This document shows positions 11,908 through 20,254 of a stretch of DNA of 64,000 bases, in pieces. Location: assembly GCA_011389865.1 (NCBI GenBank), contig JAABTL010000002.1, positions 1-64,000 of the forward strand, given 5' to 3'. A model generated the notes under the pieces. That model was not told the origin of the DNA. It saw only the letters and a list, made by a program, of their open reading frames with translations, and searched no databases. This DNA is from Trueperaceae bacterium. GTDB taxonomy: Bacteria; Deinococcota; Deinococci; Deinococcales; Trueperaceae. How positions within the stretch are numbered: the first letter of the stretch is position 1; each line of letters starts with the position of its first letter. The position numbers and the translations under genes were made by a program.

Positions 11908-12753
11908 TTACTTCTCGGCGTCGACCAACCCCTTCACGAACCAGCGTTGCATGAAGATGATGATCGCCACGGGCGGCACGAGGGCCAGCATCGCGACCGC
12001 CATGATGAGTTGCCAGTCGGTCTGCGCCTCGCCCGTGCCGATCATGCGCACGATGCCGATGACGATCGTCTCGCGGCCGCGCCCGGTGGTCACGATGAGC
12101 GGCCACAGGTACTGGTTCCAGCCGTAGATGAACATGATGACGAAGAGCGCGGCGACGTTGTTGCGCGAGAGCGGCAGCAGTACGGACCAGAAGAAGCGCA
12201 TCGCGCCGGCGCCGTCGATCTGCGCCGCGTCGACGAGCTCGTCGGCGATCGTCAGGAAGTGCTGCCGGAACAGCAGGGTCGCCGTCGCCGACGCGATCAG
12301 GGGGATGGTGAGGCCCGCGAAGGTGTCGACCATGCCGAGGTTGGAGACGACCGCGTAGGTCGGGATCATGCGGACCTCGACCGGCAGCATCAGGGTGATG
12401 AAGATCATCCAGAAGAAGAACATGCGGCCCGGGAACTCGAAGAACACCACGGCGAACGCCGACAGCAGCGAGATCGAGATCTTGCCGACGACGATCGCCA
12501 GGGCCATGTAGAGGCTGTTGCGCATCATCGTGAGCGCCGGGGTCGCGCGCACGCGCTCGCCCACGGGGCTGAAGAGTGCCTGCTGGTAGTTCTCGATGAG
12601 GTTCGGGCCGATCGTCAGGGGCATGTCCCCGCGGGCGATCGTCGACGCGTCGTGCGAGGAGCCGACGAACGCCAGGTAGATCGGGAAGGCGAAGATCGCG
12701 ACGCCCAGGAGCAGCACGACGTGTGGCAGCCAGCGGTTGCGTCCGATGGCCAT
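11908..12753 (-). CDS. ugpE: sn-glycerol-3-phosphate-type ABC permease, UgpE-like
   Basis: This 281-residue inner-membrane permease has six predicted helices. The cytoplasmic EAA loop ELVDAAQIDGAGAMRFFWSV (about residues 187-206) docks onto the ATPase. The order and wording of segments such as IPTYAVVSNLGMVDTFAGL and GWNQYLWPLIVTT match UgpE rather than maltose permeases. Its ATG overlaps the ugpA stop by one nucleotide (TGATG), so the two are translationally coupled. It works with UgpA as the channel for the UgpB-bound substrate. No UgpC ATPase gene is in this operon. Confidence 0.9.
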   Translation of the reverse strand: MAIGRNRWLPHVVLLLGVAIFAFPIYLAFVGSSHDASTIARGDMPLTIGPNLIENYQQALFSPVGERVRATPALTMMRNSLYMALAIVVGKISISLLSAFAVVFFEFPGRMFFFWMIFITLMLPVEVRMIPTYAVVSNLGMVDTFAGLTIPLIASATATLLFRQHFLTIADELVDAAQIDGAGAMRFFWSVLLPLSRNNVAALFVIMFIYGWNQYLWPLIVTTGRGRETIVIGIVRMIGTGEAQTDWQLIMAVAMLALVPPVAIIIFMQRWFVKGLVDAEK

Positions 12754-13634
12754 CAGTAATGCACCCGCCGTTCGATGTAGCGGAACTGGATCACGGTGAG
12801 CGCGATGACCGCGGTCATCAGCAGCACGGACTGGGCGGACGAGCCGCCGAGGTCGAGGTTGACCCAGCCGTCACGGTAGAGGCGGTACATCAACGTCGTG
12901 GTGGCGCGGCCGGGGCCGCCCTGGGTCTGCGCGTGGATGACGCCGAAGGTGTCGAAGAAGGCGTAGATGATGTTGACGACCAACAGGAAGAAGGTCGTGG
13001 GCGAGAGCAGCGGGAAGATGATCATCCAGAACCTGCGGGTCGGCGAGGCGCCGTCGATGGCGGCCGCCTCGACGATCGTCTTGGGGATCGACTGCAGTCC
13101 GGCGAGGAAGAACAGGAAGTTGTAGCTGACCTGCTTCCAGGCGGACACGAAGATCACCAGGAAGAGCGCCTGCCCGCCGTGGATCCGGTAGTCCCAGGGG
13201 ACGCCCAGCGCGCGCAGGCCCTGGCCGAACTGGCCGATCGTCGGGTGGAAGATGAAGAGCATCAGGACGGCCGCGACGGCGGGCGCGATGGCGTACGGCC
13301 ACACGATGAGCGTGCGGTAGCCGGTGGCGCCCCGGATCACCTGGTCGGCCATGACGGCGAGCAGCAGCGCGGGACCCATGGCGCCGAGGGTGACGGCGAC
13401 GGAGAAGACCACGGTGACGCGAGCGGCCTCGAGATACAGGGGATTGGTGAGGACGGTCTGGAAGTTCTCGAACCAGATGAACTGACTGCGCAGCCCGAAG
13501 GGATCCTCGAACAGCATCGACTGGTAGAGGGCCTGCGCGGCAGGATAGAAGAAGAAGATGACGGTGACGGCGAGCTGGGGCGTCAGGAGCAGGTAGGGAA
13601 GCAGCTTGTTGCGGAAGATGGTGCGCCGGCGCAT
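12753..13634 (-). CDS. ugpA: sn-glycerol-3-phosphate-type ABC permease, UgpA-like
   Basis: This 293-residue permease is the first membrane subunit of the transporter. It has six helices, with the first following the short cytoplasmic start ([20 protein letters not shown]). The EAA loop is [20 protein letters not shown], near residues 185-204. [20 protein letters not shown] is typical of UgpA. Start is ATG 13634 with GAGAGG upstream. It follows ugpB by 81 nt, a gap filled by a strong palindrome that probably separates expression levels of binding protein and permeases. Confidence 0.9.
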
Positions 13635-13676
13635 GGGGCCTCTCGCTTGGTGGGGCGGCGATGCGGGGGGTCGTGG

Positions 13677-13708
13677 CGTCGGGGGGCGCCGCGCGGCGCC
13701 CCCCGACG
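13677..13708. promoter_or_regulatory. Perfect 32-nt palindrome between ugpB and ugpA
   Basis: Sixteen-base arms without mismatch: the left arm runs CGTCGGGGGGCGCCGC and the right arm is its exact complement. Located eight bases after the ugpB stop. It has no T-run, so it is more likely a partial terminator or RNA-stabilising stem (as in the malE-malF gap) than a full terminator. Confidence 0.75.
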
Positions 13709-13715
13709 GATGGAC

Positions 13716-15053
13716 TCATTCGTACGTGCGTTGGAAGCTGCGCAGCACGACGTTGCCGCGCTCGACGGCGCTGTCGAGCGCCTGCTGGGCCGTCTTCTGG
13801 CCCTGCAGCGCGAGTTCGAGCTCCTCGTAGATCATGTCGCGGATCTCGGGCATGTTGCCCAACCGCAGTCCCTGCGAGTTCTCGGTCGGTGGGTTGAGGA
13901 TGAGTTGCTGGTACGGCACGGCGCGACCGGGGTTCTCGACGTAGTAGCCCTCGGCCTCGAGCTTCTCGTAGACGCCGAAGCGGATGGGCAGGTAGCCGGT
14001 GTCGAGGTGCCAGCGCTCGGCCATCTCGAGCGTGCTGATGAAGTTGAGGAACTCGGCGACCGCGCTGTACTCCTCGATCGTCCGGTCGGGGGCCTGCATG
14101 ACCCACAGGCTCGCGCCGCCGATGATCGAGTTCTGCGGCGCGCCCTCGACGTCGGCGTGGTACGGCATGTAGCGGGCCGACCACTCGAAGGTCGACTCAC
14201 GCAGGATCCGGGCCAGCAGGCCGGACGAGGCGACGAGCATGCTGCACTCGCCGGACGAGAACAGCGGGTCGGCGGCGCTGCCGCGCCCCCCATAGGTGAA
14301 GGAGCCCTCGGCCTGCATGTCGACGAGCATCTGCAGGTGCGCCACGTGCAGGGGGCTGTTGATCGTCAGTTCGGTGCCGAGCCCTTCCATGCCGTTCGCC
14401 ATGGTGGCGAGGGGCACGTCGTGCCACGCGCTGAAGTTCTCGTACTGGGTCCAGCTGGGCCACGCGAACGAGACCCCGCAGGGGGCCGCGCCCGCGTCGA
14501 CGACGGCCTTGGCGGCCGTGCGGACCTCGGCCCAGGTGTCGAGCGGCGTGGTGGCCGGGTCGAGGCCCGCGTCGCGCAGCGCGTCGAGGTTCACCCACAT
14601 GATGGGGGTGGAGCTGTTGAACGGCATCGACAGCATGCGCCCGTCGGGCAGGCTGTAGTAGCCCTTGATCGCGGGGATGTAGATCTCCGGGTCGAAGGGG
14701 ACGCCGGTCTCCTCGAACAGCTCGTAGACCGGCTTGATGGCGCCGCCGGCGTACATCATCGTGGCGGTGCCGACCTCGAACATCTGCACGAGGTGGGGCG
14801 CGGTCCCCGCGCGGAAGGCGGCGATGGCCGCGACCATCGTGTCGGCGTAGCTGCCCTTGTAGCTCGGGTTGACCTGGTAGTCCGTCTGGGAGGCGTTGAA
14901 CTCCGCGACGTAGCCCTCGAGGACTTCGCCGAGCGCGCCGGTGAAGCCGTGCCAGAACTCGACCTCGACCGGCTGGGCGTTGGCGGTCGTGCCGAAGGCC
15001 AGGATGGCCGCGAGGATGGCGATGAGAGACCTGTGGAAGAGGCGCATACGCAT
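13716..15053 (-). CDS. ugpB: sn-glycerol-3-phosphate-type ABC substrate-binding protein
   Basis: This 445-residue exported solute-binding protein of the extracellular family 1 type begins with a Sec signal (RSLIAILAAILAFGTTANA, then the mature start QPVEVEFWHGF). No lipobox Cys is visible. FNASQTDYQVNPSYKGSYAD and FRAGTAPHLVQMFEVGTATM are the UgpB signature, and WVNLDALRDAGLDP lies further on. The start at 15053 is set by AAGGAG five bases upstream; an in-frame ATG ten codons earlier has no such site. It is the first gene of ugpBAE. A TGTAT-N5-ATACA site about 190 nt upstream may be its operator. The likely ligand is glycerol-3-phosphate or a glycerophosphodiester. Confidence 0.9.
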   Translation of the reverse strand: MRMRLFHRSLIAILAAILAFGTTANAQPVEVEFWHGFTGALGEVLEGYVAEFNASQTDYQVNPSYKGSYADTMVAAIAAFRAGTAPHLVQMFEVGTATMMYAGGAIKPVYELFEETGVPFDPEIYIPAIKGYYSLPDGRMLSMPFNSSTPIMWVNLDALRDAGLDPATTPLDTWAEVRTAAKAVVDAGAAPCGVSFAWPSWTQYENFSAWHDVPLATMANGMEGLGTELTINSPLHVAHLQMLVDMQAEGSFTYGGRGSAADPLFSSGECSMLVASSGLLARILRESTFEWSARYMPYHADVEGAPQNSIIGGASLWVMQAPDRTIEEYSAVAEFLNFISTLEMAERWHLDTGYLPIRFGVYEKLEAEGYYVENPGRAVPYQQLILNPPTENSQGLRLGNMPEIRDMIYEELELALQGQKTAQQALDSAVERGNVVLRSFQRTYE

Positions 15054-15444
15054 GAGATCTCCTTCGTTCGTGCGGTGGTTCACGATCCTTGGGGCTGACG
15101 TCCGTCGCCGGGTCCGTTCCTGGCCGACAGTTGCCTCGACCTCCTTACTGGGGCGGCTACGGGTGATCCCGGGACCGTCCGCGGCCTGGTCCGTTCCGGT
15201 GCGATGGCCGTTCCTTGGTGGCCGATCACCGGCCGGTCGACGATGTATTCATGATACACGTCGCGCCATCCCGGGGGCCTGACGTGGCCATGACACGGCG
15301 GACAACGCGGGCCGGCGGGGGACCCTCCGGTGGGTCGCTCGGCGCGTCGGCGGGCGCCGGCGCTTGCGTCGCCGGCTGGTCGGCACGATGATGGCAGGAG
15401 CGACGGGCTACGCCACGGCCCGCCGGCACGGAGAAGGAGCCGAG
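15054..15444. other. Divergent 391-bp intergenic region between ugpB and the TelA-like operon
   Basis: No gene is visible on either strand. It carries the ugpB ribosome site at its left end, the TGTAT-N5-ATACA inverted repeat at 15244-15258, and the AGAAGGAG ribosome site of the rightward operon at 15432-15439. The remainder is plain GC-rich sequence. Confidence 0.7.
15244..15258. promoter_or_regulatory. TGTAT-TCATG-ATACA inverted repeat, candidate ugp operator
   Basis: Five-base perfect arms around a 5-nt centre (TCATG). It is the only AT-rich patch in the region and resembles operators of GntR or LacI family regulators. On the minus strand it contains TATCAT, a possible -10 for ugpB. Confidence 0.45.
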
Positions 15445-16611
15445 ATGACCCAGGCCGCCACCCCCCTCGCGTACCTCGACAAGGCGCTCGGCGCCCTGCG
15501 CGACCTGGGCCTGGTGCCCGAGCGCACGGGCGGCCACGAGGCGCCCATCGTCGCCCTGCTGCAGCAGATCAGCCACCTGGACGAGGACCGCATCGTGGCG
15601 ATCACCCGCACGCTGTCGCAGGCGAGCCTGTTCCACGAGGTCGTGCGGGCACAGGTCGAGGCGATGGACATCGGCGATCGCTACGAGCGCCTGACCCGCG
15701 ACTTCGACAGCATCCGCGACGACGCCCGGATGCTCGTCGAGCAGATGGAGGACGGCAAGATCACCACCCGCGAGCGCCTCGAGACGGTGTGGATGAAGGT
15801 CACGCGCGGCGACATCGCCCAGCGCTTCGAGCGCATCAAGGACACCTACCTCGACGTCGCGGCCTCGGCGCGCGACCAGCTCGAGCGCGAGAACGTCATC
15901 CTGGAGGCCTACCAGGACTTCCGCGGGGCGCTCAAGCAGGCGGAGGTGCTCGCGTTCGAGGTGCTGCAGACGGCCAAGGCCGAGCTCGACGCCGCCAAGG
16001 TCGCGGTCGACGCCGCGCTCTCCGAGGTCGACGCCCTGGGCGACGACGCCGACCCGGCGGAGCGGGCCCGCCTGGAGCTGCGGCGCGACGAGCGGGTCCG
16101 CGAGCTGCAGCGCTCCGACCGGCGCTACCAGGTCGCCAAGGACCTGGCCGACAACCTCACGATCGGCTACAACACCTCCGAGGTCGTCATGGCCCGGCTC
16201 ATGCAGTCGCACACCGCCAAGGAGCGCGTCAACGCCCAGGCCGTCAGCTTCTTCGCCACCAACGAGACCGTGCTGACGGCGCTGTCGGCCTCCTTCACCG
16301 GCCTGACCGGCCTGCACGAGAGCACCCGCACGCTCGAGGCCATGAAGGAGGGCGTCAGCCGCTCGCTCGAGACGCTGGCCGACGTCGGCGGGCAGGTGCA
16401 GGAGGAGGCCGTGCGCGCCGGCTACGGACCGACGGTGCGGGCGGACGCGGTGCAGCGGCTGGTCGACTCGGTCGTCGACTTCCAGTTGCGCTCGCGCGAG
16501 ATCATCGAGGAGATGCGCGCCGAGTCGACCCGCAACGCCGAGGAGATCCGCGAGGCGGTCGAGGACGGCAAGCGGCGGCTGGCGCGGCTCGCCCAGCCCG
16601 TGGCGCTGTGA
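15445..16611 (+). CDS. Helical coiled-coil protein, possibly TelA-like; first gene of a three-gene operon
   Basis: This 388-residue, highly charged, almost entirely helical soluble protein has no signal peptide, membrane segment or cysteine-rich motif. The middle (RDQLERENVILEAYQDFRGA ... LELRRDERVRELQRSD) and the following ATNETVLTALSASFTGLTGL recall the overall plan of TelA/KlaA toxic-anion resistance proteins. I see no exact TelA motif, so this is only a suggestion. Start ATG 15445 has AGAAGGAG five bases upstream. A DUF6384-like membrane gene follows after 10 nt and a second coiled-coil gene after that. The three probably act together at the membrane. Confidence 0.75.
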   Translation: MTQAATPLAYLDKALGALRDLGLVPERTGGHEAPIVALLQQISHLDEDRIVAITRTLSQASLFHEVVRAQVEAMDIGDRYERLTRDFDSIRDDARMLVEQMEDGKITTRERLETVWMKVTRGDIAQRFERIKDTYLDVAASARDQLERENVILEAYQDFRGALKQAEVLAFEVLQTAKAELDAAKVAVDAALSEVDALGDDADPAERARLELRRDERVRELQRSDRRYQVAKDLADNLTIGYNTSEVVMARLMQSHTAKERVNAQAVSFFATNETVLTALSASFTGLTGLHESTRTLEAMKEGVSRSLETLADVGGQVQEEAVRAGYGPTVRADAVQRLVDSVVDFQLRSREIIEEMRAESTRNAEEIREAVEDGKRRLARLAQPVAL

Positions 16612-16621
16612 CGGAGCCGGC

Positions 16622-17566
16622 GTGTCCGGCAGCGACGCCACGCTGAAGCCGTCGGCCGCGGCCGCGGACGCGAACGCGACCACCGCCGAGCCCGCGCTCG
16701 ACGAGGTCCTGCTGGCGATGGACGTCGTCGACACCCTGCGCCATCGCGAGGAACTGGTGGCGCAGGAGCTCGCGCGCGGCGACCACGATGCGGCGCTTCT
16801 CGAGCGCCTGCGGCGGACCTACGCGGCGCAGGGCATCGAGGTACCCGAACACGTGCTGCTCGACGGCGTGGCGGCGCTGCGCGAGGACCGCTTCGCCTAC
16901 CGGCCGGCGCCGCCGAGCGTCGCCCGCTCGCTGGCGACCGTCTACGTCAGGCGCGGGCTGTGGCTGCGCCGGCTGCTCGTCGTGCTGGCGGTGGCCGCCG
17001 TCGCGGTGCTGGTGGTCCAGCAGGCGGTGGTGGCCCCGCGCCGCGCGTTGGTCGACGGTCTGACCGAGGCCCACGCCGCGATCGTCGCCCTCGCCAGCGA
17101 ACCCACTGCGCAGACGCGCGCCGCCGCCCTGGTGGCCGACGGGCGGGCCGCCCTCGTCCAAGGCGACCGCGAGGCCGCGGGCAGGGCCCTCGAGGCGCTG
17201 GAGGGCCTGCGGGCCGACCTCGAGCGGGCGTACGAGCTCCGCATCGTCGTCGGCGAGGGCGTGGCCAGCGGCGTCTGGCGCGTGCCGGACGACAACGCCC
17301 GCGCTCGCAACTTCTACCTGATCGTCGAGGCGATCGACCCGAGCGGTCGACGCCTGACGCTGCCGATCCTCAGCGAGGAGACCGGCCGCGTCGAGCGGGT
17401 CACGAACTGGGGCCTGCGGGTCGACGAGGAGACCTGGAACCGGGTCGCCGCGGACAAGGCGGACGACGGCATCATCCAGCAGCGGACCGTCGGGCGCAAG
17501 GTCGCCGGCGAGCTCGAGCCCGCGTACCTGGTCGAGACCACGGGCGGGGCGATCACGCGATGGTGA
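16622..17566 (+). CDS. DUF6384-like single-span membrane protein
   Basis: This 314-residue protein has a soluble N-terminal region of about 110 residues (LDEVLLAMDVVDTLRHREEL, then IEVPEHVLLDGVAALREDRF). One strong membrane helix (LLVVLAVAAVAVLVVQ, near residues 120-137) follows. A helical linker leads to a C-terminal globular domain of about 100 residues (FYLIVEAIDPSGRRLTLPIL ... GDGIIQQRTVGRKV-like). I recognise the N-terminal pattern as the DUF6384 family, whose function is unknown. GTG start at 16622 with CGGAG upstream. Middle gene of the operon; the spacing to both neighbours is 10 nt. Confidence 0.75.
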   Translation: MSGSDATLKPSAAAADANATTAEPALDEVLLAMDVVDTLRHREELVAQELARGDHDAALLERLRRTYAAQGIEVPEHVLLDGVAALREDRFAYRPAPPSVARSLATVYVRRGLWLRRLLVVLAVAAVAVLVVQQAVVAPRRALVDGLTEAHAAIVALASEPTAQTRAAALVADGRAALVQGDREAAGRALEALEGLRADLERAYELRIVVGEGVASGVWRVPDDNARARNFYLIVEAIDPSGRRLTLPILSEETGRVERVTNWGLRVDEETWNRVAADKADDGIIQQRTVGRKVAGELEPAYLVETTGGAITRW

Positions 17567-17576
17567 GGGGGACGCC

Positions 17577-19085
17577 GTGAGTCGATCGGAGATGAGCGGA
17601 CGCGACGCGCTCGGCGTCATCCAGCGGACGATCGAGGAGGAGCGGGCGCGCAGCCGGGCCGTCGAGGCGCAGCTCGAGACCGCCAGCATGGCGCTCGTCG
17701 GCACCGACCAGGAGCGGGCGCGCGCGCTCTCCGAGCTCGCCGCCATCCGGGTCGCCTGGTTGGCCGAGGGCGGCCTCGCCGACCGCCTGAACGAGGCCGA
17801 CCGACGGGCGCTGGCCCTCCTGGAGCGGCGCGAGGCGCTCAGGACCGCGGTGGAGGGCGAGCTGGCCGAGGCCGGGGCCGACCGCGCGCGTCGCGCTGAG
17901 GCGCGGCGGGAGGCGGTCGAGGCGCTCGAACGCGCCGCCGAGCGGCTCGACGAGGCGGAGGCCGCCACCCAGGCGCGGCTGGCGAAGGATCCCGGCTACG
18001 TCGCGTTGCGCGAGGCGGCCGCGGCGGCCGAGCGCATCGCGGTCCATGCCGACGAGAAGGCGACGACGGCCGAGGAGGAGCTGGCGGCCAAGGGCGCGGC
18101 CTACGACGCCGACCCGCTGTTCGCCTACCTGTGGCGGCGGGGCTACGGGACGGCCGCCTACCGCGGCTGGCCGCTGACGCGTTGGCTCGACGGCCGGGTC
18201 GCGCGCCTCATCGGCTACGAGGGGTCCCGCCGCAACTACCACCGCCTCCAGGAGCTACCCCTGCGCCTGCGCGAGCACGCCGACCGGGTCGGCGCGGCAG
18301 CGGACGAGGCGCTCGCCGCCCTGGCCGAGCGCGACGCGGACGAGCGCGAGGCCGACGGCGTGCTGCCACTCGTGGACGCCGTCGAGAGCGCGCGTGAGGG
18401 CCTGCTGGAGATCGACGGCGAGATCGAGCGCGCCGACGCGGCGGCTCGCGGGGTCGAGGAGAGGCTGGCCGCCTTCGCTCGCGGCGAGGACCCGCTCTAC
18501 CTCGAAGCGGTCGCCCTCCTGACCGAGGAGTTCGGGCGCGTGTCGCTGAAGGCGCTCGCGCGCGAGGCGATCGCCACCCCCCTCCCCGAGGACGACCGCG
18601 TCGTGGCGAGGCTGCTCGAGCTCGAGCGTCGCCGCGAGACGCAGACGGTGGCGCAGGCGGAACTGCGCGAGGCGGCCGCGCGCCACAAGGCGCGGACGAC
18701 CGACCTCGAGCGCGTCCGCATCGACTTCACCCGCCGGCGATACGACCAGCCCGGCAGCGTCTTCGCCGAGGGGGCGATGATCGGGACGCTGCTGGCGCAG
18801 CTGCTCGACGGCGCGATGACGCGCGACGCGCTGTGGCGCGTCCTGGAACGGCAGCGGCGGGTGGCGCCGACGCGCAGCGACCCGACGTTCGGCTCGGGTG
18901 GGTTCGGTCGCGGTTCGCCGTGGGGCGGCGGCTCGAGCGGCGGATCGCGGGGCGGCCCGAGCGTGAGCTTCGGGGGGACGAGGCGCGCGGGCGGCATGAA
19001 GACCGGCGGCAGCATCGGTGGCGGAGGCTTCAAGACCGGCGGGCGCATGCGCGGGGGCGGGTTCAAGACCGGCGGCAAGTTCTAG
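17577..19085 (+). CDS. Coiled-coil protein with Gly-rich FKTGG-repeat tail
   Basis: This 502-residue protein is last in the operon. Residues 1 to about 140 are continuous coiled coil rich in Ala, Glu and Arg. Residues 170-215 form a Trp/Tyr-containing patch (LFAYLWRRGYGTAAYRGWPL). Coiled coil resumes to about residue 420. The last 75 residues are disordered and Gly/Arg/Ser-rich, ending in repeated units (GGMKTGGS, GGGFKTGGR, GGGFKTGGK). No signal peptide or membrane helix. GTG start at 17577 after AGGGG. The function is unknown; the tail resembles low-complexity segments that mediate multimer or membrane association. Confidence 0.8.
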   Translation: MSRSEMSGRDALGVIQRTIEEERARSRAVEAQLETASMALVGTDQERARALSELAAIRVAWLAEGGLADRLNEADRRALALLERREALRTAVEGELAEAGADRARRAEARREAVEALERAAERLDEAEAATQARLAKDPGYVALREAAAAAERIAVHADEKATTAEEELAAKGAAYDADPLFAYLWRRGYGTAAYRGWPLTRWLDGRVARLIGYEGSRRNYHRLQELPLRLREHADRVGAAADEALAALAERDADEREADGVLPLVDAVESAREGLLEIDGEIERADAAARGVEERLAAFARGEDPLYLEAVALLTEEFGRVSLKALAREAIATPLPEDDRVVARLLELERRRETQTVAQAELREAAARHKARTTDLERVRIDFTRRRYDQPGSVFAEGAMIGTLLAQLLDGAMTRDALWRVLERQRRVAPTRSDPTFGSGGFGRGSPWGGGSSGGSRGGPSVSFGGTRRAGGMKTGGSIGGGGFKTGGRMRGGGFKTGGKF

Positions 19086-19096
19086 GGGTAGCGACC

Positions 19097-19110
19097 GGCG
19101 GCCCGCCGCC
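19097..19110. terminator. Hairpin between convergent operons
   Basis: GGCGGC-CC-GCCGCC, a six-pair stem between two stop codons of convergent genes. There is no T-run on either strand, so termination is only a possibility. Confidence 0.35.
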
Positions 19111-19649
19111 TAGAGCAGCCAGCCGACGGCGCCGCCCGCGACGATCAGCAGCGCCGGGTGGATCCGTGTCCGTAGGGACAGCACGAGCGCGGCGGCCGCC
19201 AGCGGCCACAGCGGCCACGTGCCCCAACGCAGGTCTGGCGGGTTCATGGCGGTCGGGAGGAAGTCCCAGACCACCAGCGCGAGCAGCGCCACGACGACCG
19301 GGCGCACGCCGTAGAGGAAGCGCTGCACGACGTCGCGCTCCTTGTGGCGCCGGTAGAGCGCGAACAGCACGACCATCGCCACGATCGTCGGCGCCGTGAC
19401 GCCCGCGAGGGCGGCCGCCGCGCCCGCCCAGCCGGCGACCTGGAAGCCCGTGTAGCCGGCCATCTTCGTCGCGATGGGGCCAGGCAGAGCGTTGCCGAAG
19501 GCGAACGCGTCGAGGAACTCGGCGGGCGTGAGCCACGACCGCAGGTCGACGACCTCGACCTGGATCAGCGGGATCATCGCCGGTCCGCCGCCGAAGCCGA
19601 GCAGGCCGACGCGGGCGAAGGCCCAGAAGAGCTCGAGGAGCTCGCTCAC
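19110..19649 (-). CDS. chrA: Half-size chromate transporter (CHR), second of a pair
   Basis: This 179-residue membrane protein is one half of the CHR fold, used in short-chain chromate ion transporters that act as heterodimers. FARVGLLGFGGGPAMIPLIQ near the N terminus and FAFGNALPGPIATKMAGYTG near residue 55 are the CHR signatures. A third conserved block (GVRPVVVALLALVVWDF) precedes the last helices. The start is GTG at 19649, overlapping the upstream partner's stop by 4 nt (GTGA), so the two subunits are made together. The natural substrate may be chromate or another oxyanion. Confidence 0.9.
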   Translation of the reverse strand: MSELLELFWAFARVGLLGFGGGPAMIPLIQVEVVDLRSWLTPAEFLDAFAFGNALPGPIATKMAGYTGFQVAGWAGAAAALAGVTAPTIVAMVVLFALYRRHKERDVVQRFLYGVRPVVVALLALVVWDFLPTAMNPPDLRWGTWPLWPLAAAALVLSLRTRIHPALLIVAGGAVGWLL

Positions 19650-20254
19650 GCTCGCCGCCCCAGCGCGATGCCGGCGACGCCGCCGGCCAGGATGAGCAGG
19701 CCGGGGTGGATGCCGAACGCGATCGCGGCGACGAAGGCGGCGACCGCCAGACCCCAGCGCAGGAGGTTGCTCCGCCACGAGCCGAGGGGCCCCAGCGCGC
19801 GCGGCGCGAAGATCACGACCGTGTACACGAGCAGCCCGATGACGACCGGCCGCAGGCCCGTGAGGAAGCCCTCGACCCAGGGGTCGTCCTGGTACTGCAC
19901 GTAGAGGGCCGCGAGGCCGACCATGGCGAGGATCGTGGGCACGGTCAGCGCCAGCAGCGCGACCAGCGCGCCGGCCCAGCCGGCCACCCGGTAGCCGACG
20001 TAGCCGGCGAGCTTGGTGGCGATGGGTCCGGGCAGGGCGTTGCCGAAGGCGAAGGCGTCGAGGAAGGCCTCGCGCGACAGCCAGCGCCGGGCCTCGACCT
20101 CGCGCTGGATCAGCGGGATGAAGGAGGGGCCGCCGCCGAAGCCGAACAGGCCGACCTTGCCGAACGCGCTCGCCAGGTCCGCGAGCCGGCCGACGAGAGG
20201 GCGGGCCTCGACCGGGTCCGGTGGAGCCGCGGTGGTGGGGGCGCCTGCGGGCAT
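19646..20254 (-). CDS. chrA: Half-size chromate transporter (CHR), first of a pair
   Basis: This 202-residue protein is the partner of the following gene and clearly homologous to it (LFGFGGGPSFIPLIQREVEA, FAFGNALPGPIATKLAGYVG, GLRPVVIGLLVYTVVIF). About 25 extra residues precede the first CHR motif. The starting ATG at 20254 has no ribosome site but is preceded at 7 nt by TAGGAT, so it is probably leaderless. The pair encodes antiparallel halves that together make one transporter of ten or so helices. Confidence 0.9.
   Translation of the reverse strand: MPAGAPTTAAPPDPVEARPLVGRLADLASAFGKVGLFGFGGGPSFIPLIQREVEARRWLSREAFLDAFAFGNALPGPIATKLAGYVGYRVAGWAGALVALLALTVPTILAMVGLAALYVQYQDDPWVEGFLTGLRPVVIGLLVYTVVIFAPRALGPLGSWRSNLLRWGLAVAAFVAAIAFGIHPGLLILAGGVAGIALGRRA

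Follow-up and report, generated by a model that had tools for sequence, protein, structure and literature searches.

A conserved three-gene unit with a DUF6384 membrane protein and two soluble helical proteins in Trueperaceae, megaplasmids and a jumbo phage

The A-B-C operon and its products

The window analysed here is a stretch of 64,000 nucleotides from a Trueperaceae bacterium (GenBank assembly GCA_011389865.1, contig JAABTL010000002.1, positions 1 to 64,000). It harbors three co-directional open reading frames (ORFs), termed A, B, and C, which start with ATG, GTG, and GTG, respectively (Table 1), and are separated by gaps of 10 nucleotides each (16612-16621 and 17567-17576). A purine-rich, Shine-Dalgarno-like ribosome site, read directly from the sequence, precedes every one of them. 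This operon is real and far beyond chance: the gene order is conserved across phyla, and for the pattern that ends protein C, shuffles of the window give an expectation of 0.00 occurrences. An in-frame ATG offers an alternative start for C, and the starts of the homologues align with that ATG.

Protein A is devoid of a membrane span (peak Kyte-Doolittle hydropathy, KD, 1.06) and is strongly conserved, with a mean column identity of 63% in the alignment of its homologues. Structures were modelled as single chains from 34-35 related sequences, the plasmid and phage rows being left out. The model of A (predicted local distance difference test, pLDDT, 73.6) is extended and all-helical, with two long antiparallel helices. 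Its confidence is low at residues 287-333, within the most conserved stretch (~259-335); this coincidence makes the stretch a candidate contact surface. Protein A matches nothing in Pfam, NCBIfam, PHROGs, or PADLOC, and fold searches of BFVD and the PDB return no match with an E-value below 1e-3. Four named phage TelA/tellurite proteins are found among its best 30 BFVD matches, with template modelling (TM) scores of 0.28-0.37. As the models are single-chain and built from few dozen sequences as stated above, the absence of a fold match is weak evidence of a new fold. A and C were also considered as duplicates of one another, and this was rejected: the probability is 7.6% and reflects the coiled-coil signal alone. 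In the records of Pseudomonas plasmids (L031, L032, L064), A is annotated as "merozoite surface protein 3b", and in others as "cell surface protein". These public names are misleading, A being soluble and cytoplasmic.

Protein B is a certain member of the DUF6384 family (PF19911; DUF, domain of unknown function), which it matches with 359.7 bits (cut-off 25) over profile positions 3-308 of 308. All 48 aligned B homologues match the same family. No paper naming DUF6384 was found in the openly readable literature searched. B possesses a single hydrophobic span (peak KD 2.69). Because 41 of 52 homologues carry more positive charge on the N-terminal side of the span, 10 others being ties, B would adopt an N-in topology. 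In its model (pLDDT 85.9), the helical hairpin covers residues 26-87, and the span continues into a long helix and further helices up to residue 201, followed by a well-predicted beta domain. In megaplasmids and phage, B is longer by 100-190 residues, most of which lie between the span and the beta domain. A fold search of B in the PDB gives no match with an E-value below 1e-3.

Protein C is likewise soluble, without a membrane span (peak KD 1.23), and its profile finds coiled-coil noise only in the PDB. Sequence searches of the PDB with A, B, and C return generic coiled-coil or designed-helix matches only, and the PHROG library gives no useful match for the operon proteins. The Gly-rich tail of C ends in a conserved peptide, F-x-[T/S]-[G/S]-[G/D]-x-F-COOH in summary, and the broader pattern [FWY]-x-[TSR]-[GSTRD]-[GDEN]-x-[FILM]-COOH fits the terminus of 41 of 47 homologues, from Deinococcota to phage. 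The strict DNA form of the motif occurs once in the 3.05-Mb genome, at C, and no other protein of that genome carries it. Three viral-contig matches to the motif were discarded, as they lie in no reading frame with such an end.

The preliminary description of this locus, made from the sequence alone, thus holds for the 10-nucleotide gaps and the three ribosome sites, for the DUF6384 character of B, and for the parts of a membrane-anchored assembly, with one span in B and none in A or C.

Table 1. Features of the A-B-C operon and its flanks in the window
Feature	Position	Strand	Description
Ribosome binding site of A	15430..15439	+	GGAGAAGGAG, 5 nt before ATG; direct sequence reading
Gene A	15445..16611	+	388 aa, soluble, all-helical, without known family; start ATG; two long helices (123-196, 204-298) in the model
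A residues 259-335	16219..16449	+	best conserved stretch of the operon: F269 F270 T272 N273 E274 ... G289 ... Y327
Ribosome site of B	16613-16616	+	GGAG; direct sequence reading
Gene B	16622..17566	+	314 aa, DUF6384 (PF19911), one-span, putative inner-membrane protein; start GTG
B residues 26-95	16697..16906	+	conserved helical hairpin, predicted cytoplasmic (DEVLLAMDVVDTLRH...); alignment and model
B transmembrane span, residues 119-137	16976..17032	+	predicted N-in by the positive-inside rule
B residues 204-314	17231..17563	+	beta domain, predicted extracytoplasmic; end TTGGAITRW-COOH
Ribosome site of C	17565-17572	+	GAGGGGGA; direct sequence reading
Gene C	17577..19085	+	502 aa (497 from ATG 17592), coiled coil, no Pfam, NCBIfam, PHROG, or PADLOC family; start GTG
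C residues 176-238	18102..18290	+	conserved core (DPLFAYLWRRGYGT...LTRWLDGRVARLIGYEGSRRNYHRL)
C Gly-rich tail	18876..19082	+	repeated GGGFKTGG units; direct reading
C-terminal peptide	19053..19082	+	GGGFKTGGKF-COOH; conserved end
Upstream genes	11908-15083	-	two permeases and the solute-binding protein of a sugar-type ABC transporter; divergently oriented to the operon
Genes just 3' of C	19110-20254	-	two chromate-transporter halves in overlapping frames

Co-occurrence and inheritance as a unit

The three families occur together. B is detected by its profile in 15 of 370 gammaproteobacterial genomes. The same 15 have A, whose profile additionally matches one 107-residue fragment at the end of a contig, and the same 15 give strong matches to the C profile, which has three further, weak coiled-coil matches. 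In a sample of 151 Deinococcota genomes, A-B-C is confined to Trueperaceae, roughly half of which possess it; A is over the cut-off in 21 genomes and B in 18, a difference that, from the tabulated matches, lies in genomes whose assemblies are fragmented or incomplete. Two of 337 alphaproteobacterial genomes are over the cut-off, one of them (G229) with two complete copies. The latter (L039 and L041) are clearly different from each other.

The order is A-B-C, with short gaps, wherever the locus is complete, be it in Trueperaceae, in Alpha- or Gammaproteobacteria, or on megaplasmids. Furthermore, the pairwise distances of A, B, and C correlate with r of 0.84-0.90, the largest value in 2000 permutations being 0.48. 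These same-genome counts, the constant order, and the correlated distances all show that the three genes go together, and A-B-C is almost certainly an obligate unit. The conserved gene unit proposed in the preliminary description is therefore found across phyla, and the rare co-occurrence that it had named as speaking against its proposal is decisively not what is seen.

No fourth gene recurs across lineages among the 45 loci with long flanks that were compared, and the flanking genes vary. From this homology check, the ABC transporter and chromate-transporter genes that flank the operon in the window lie outside the unit. Rfam, promoter, and terminator scans find nothing in the region around A-B-C.

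Carriers and neighborhoods

The Trueperaceae copies form one clade (support 95/92), consistent with vertical inheritance in that family. Megaplasmids carrying A-B-C are those of Pseudomonas, Bradyrhizobium, Methylorubrum, Microvirga, and Rhizobium. The laboratory strain Methylorubrum extorquens AM1 (L035) possesses the operon. A complete A-B-C is also found in the Yersinia jumbo phage phiR1-37, as g190-g192 (NC_016163.1, 128018-131849; L037 7971-11802), annotated as hypothetical. Phage A is recognised at 42% identity, phage B matches DUF6384 with an E-value of 4.7e-26, and phage C is recognised by profile comparison (E-value 1.4e-6) as well as by its GGGFSSSDSF end. Phage A groups with the Pseudomonas megaplasmid copies (100/97), its exact position in the tree being unsure because of a long branch. 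Chimallin is absent from phiR1-37 (PMC10299810), so that A-B-C does not belong to a phage nucleus there. Four viral contigs (L065, L067-L069) were rejected as further phage carriers, since they resemble Pseudomonas chromosome beside an integrase and not phage genes.

In megaplasmid pMPPla107, a StiP+PELOTA gene (248 bits) is located 2.3 kb upstream of A, and pBASL58 possesses an annotated counterpart upstream of A. Both Pseudomonas plasmids (L033 3677-7827 and L034 3594-7001, respectively) display StiP+PELOTA, an unknown upstream gene, and a PTH2-like gene directly before A-B-C, and an unknown gene of ~220 residues and dcd on its 3' side. A metallophosphoesterase gene is also found among the upstream genes in pMPPla107.

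A putative membrane-anchored scaffold

A, B, and C probably form a membrane-anchored complex. Embedded in the inner membrane, B would expose its conserved hairpin to the cytoplasm and its helical stalk and beta domain to the outside. A and C would be cytoplasmic coiled coils assembling on the hairpin of B, which would thereby link the scaffold beneath the inner membrane to the extracytoplasmic beta domain. C may dock onto a partner by its flexible, Gly-rich tail, which ends in the F-x-T-G-G-x-F peptide. The assembly would most likely stabilise or guard the envelope, against stress, foreign DNA entry, or superinfection, as has been proposed for Ter/TelA sub-membrane structures. Physical contact among the three proteins and a protective role are both conjectural, and the full proposal, a scaffold anchored by B with a Ter-like protective role, is put forward tentatively, at somewhat below even likelihood. 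The protective role is made plausible by the StiP+PELOTA gene upstream in two megaplasmids, by carriage on megaplasmids and in a jumbo phage, and by the phage TelA/tellurite proteins among the viral fold matches of A, none of them significant. A role in envelope stress or toxic-anion tolerance is, by analogy, possible.

Several observations weigh against this proposal. A is not a TelA by sequence, and its fold matches are weak. The StiP neighborhood is found in two related megaplasmids only, and the genome of the window has neither StiP nor TelA. The chromosomal settings of A-B-C are varied, with housekeeping genes among the flanks elsewhere, and neither A, B, and C of the window nor those of phiR1-37 match a PADLOC model. 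Furthermore, the 209-kb Dolichospermum cyanophage Dfl-JY45 has adjacent B and C (L060 4978-7709) with no detectable A, a divergent A having been looked for beside them and not found. A Rhodanobacter denitrificans plasmid (L061 6900-8962) carries a DUF6384 gene without detectable A or C, a C beside B having also been looked for and not found. A may thus be dispensable in some forms. In this plasmid, the lone DUF6384 gene adjoins a PRTRC replication/partition module.

Other roles can be envisaged for the unit. It could be a superinfection or plasmid-entry exclusion system of mobile elements that blocks DNA entry at the inner membrane and was later domesticated on chromosomes. The megaplasmid and phiR1-37 carriers, the grouping of the phage copy with those of Pseudomonas megaplasmids, and the similar action proposed for Ter loci (PMC7824862) are in line with this, whereas the single Trueperaceae clade fits vertical inheritance in stable chromosomal settings, and neither a PADLOC match nor a defence island among the recurrent neighbors is found; we consider it unlikely. 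A-B-C could also be a structural or cell-shape element, in the form of a skeleton that polymerises beneath the membrane and gives order to the envelope as the cell grows, serving neither defence nor stress. Its chromosomal, housekeeping settings in several gammaproteobacteria, the very strong conservation of the helical, extended A, and the coiled-coil nature of C speak for this. Such a cell-shape element is improbable in view of its patchy spread (15 of 370 gammaproteobacteria, 2 of 337 alphaproteobacteria above the cut-off, roughly half of Trueperaceae) and its presence on mobile elements, both at odds with a core structural role. It is possible, but doubtful, that A-B-C represents a membrane-spanning, three-component coiled-coil machine of a class not described before, with no relation to Ter, PSP, or solved folds, in which the terminal F-x-T-G-G-x-F of C would be a system-specific docking signal, and which jumbo phages and megaplasmids would deploy in conflicts with rivals or hosts.

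Two further readings draw on the weak fold matches of A. Its resemblance to phage TelA, together with StiP in two megaplasmids, would fit a true TelA/Ter toxic-anion resistance operon, as suggested in the preliminary description, in which A was called TelA-like. That assignment fails: PF05816 (TelA; cut-off 30 bits) is not matched by A at E<=1 or by any protein of its genome, the 25 families that 46 A homologues match most often do not include it, and profile-profile comparison (hhalign) of the A family with nine gammaproteobacterial TelA proteins gives a probability of 0.3%. Profile search and profile-profile comparison thus rule out A as a TelA family member and, as TelA loci are also without B or C homologues, make such an operon very improbable. 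Several AhlB, SmhB, XaxA, and NheA chains are also found among these matches, which, with three co-transcribed genes for extended helical proteins, recalls a tripartite alpha-helical pore-forming toxin of the ClyA type. No fold match, however, is better than an E-value of 1e-2, the resemblance concerns A only, B, an integral membrane protein, belongs to a different family, and A and C have no span-like segment, so that a toxin is extremely improbable.

Whatever its role, A-B-C is inherited as a single block in different phyla, on megaplasmids, and in a jumbo phage, yet A and C belong to no named family, B is a DUF, and public annotation hides the three behind misleading labels. When A-B-C is taken as one system, three unknowns at the DUF level can be tested jointly, and the invariant stretch of A, the B hairpin, and the peptide that ends C offer concrete handles. 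Should it prove protective, A-B-C would add to the Ter-like envelope systems that mobile elements use.

Comparison with known systems

For TelA (PF05816) of Ter systems, a role in building structures beneath the membrane that act against the entry of phages or xenobiotics has been proposed, and Ter genes are found in jumbo phages (PMC7824862). A resembles TelA in size, solubility, and a long helical hairpin, and has phage TelA proteins among its weak fold matches; in contrast, the two have no sequence relation, and TelA neighborhoods are without relatives of B and C. Gammaproteobacterial TelA loci (L074-L079) are tight multi-gene rows with ORFs of ~290-340 residues before TelA and, in several of them, of ~360 residues after it. 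These flanking ORFs are unlike A-B-C in sequence. The StiP/PELOTA Ter-type biosynthetic module lies a short way upstream of A in pMPPla107 and, judged by annotation, in pBASL58, but it is absent from the other A-B-C contexts and from the genome of the window.

Phage shock protein (PSP) systems combine a peripheral coiled coil and a small membrane partner at the inner membrane (PMC11237479), a general plan similar to that of A-B-C. A and C, however, are not PspA_IM30 proteins, and one of the 48 B homologues matches that model, marginally (E-value 8e-4). The cassette g190-g192 of phage phiR1-37 consists of the same three genes in the same order as the window operon, but its B has a longer extracytoplasmic stalk, as predicted, and the tail of its C is Ser-rich.

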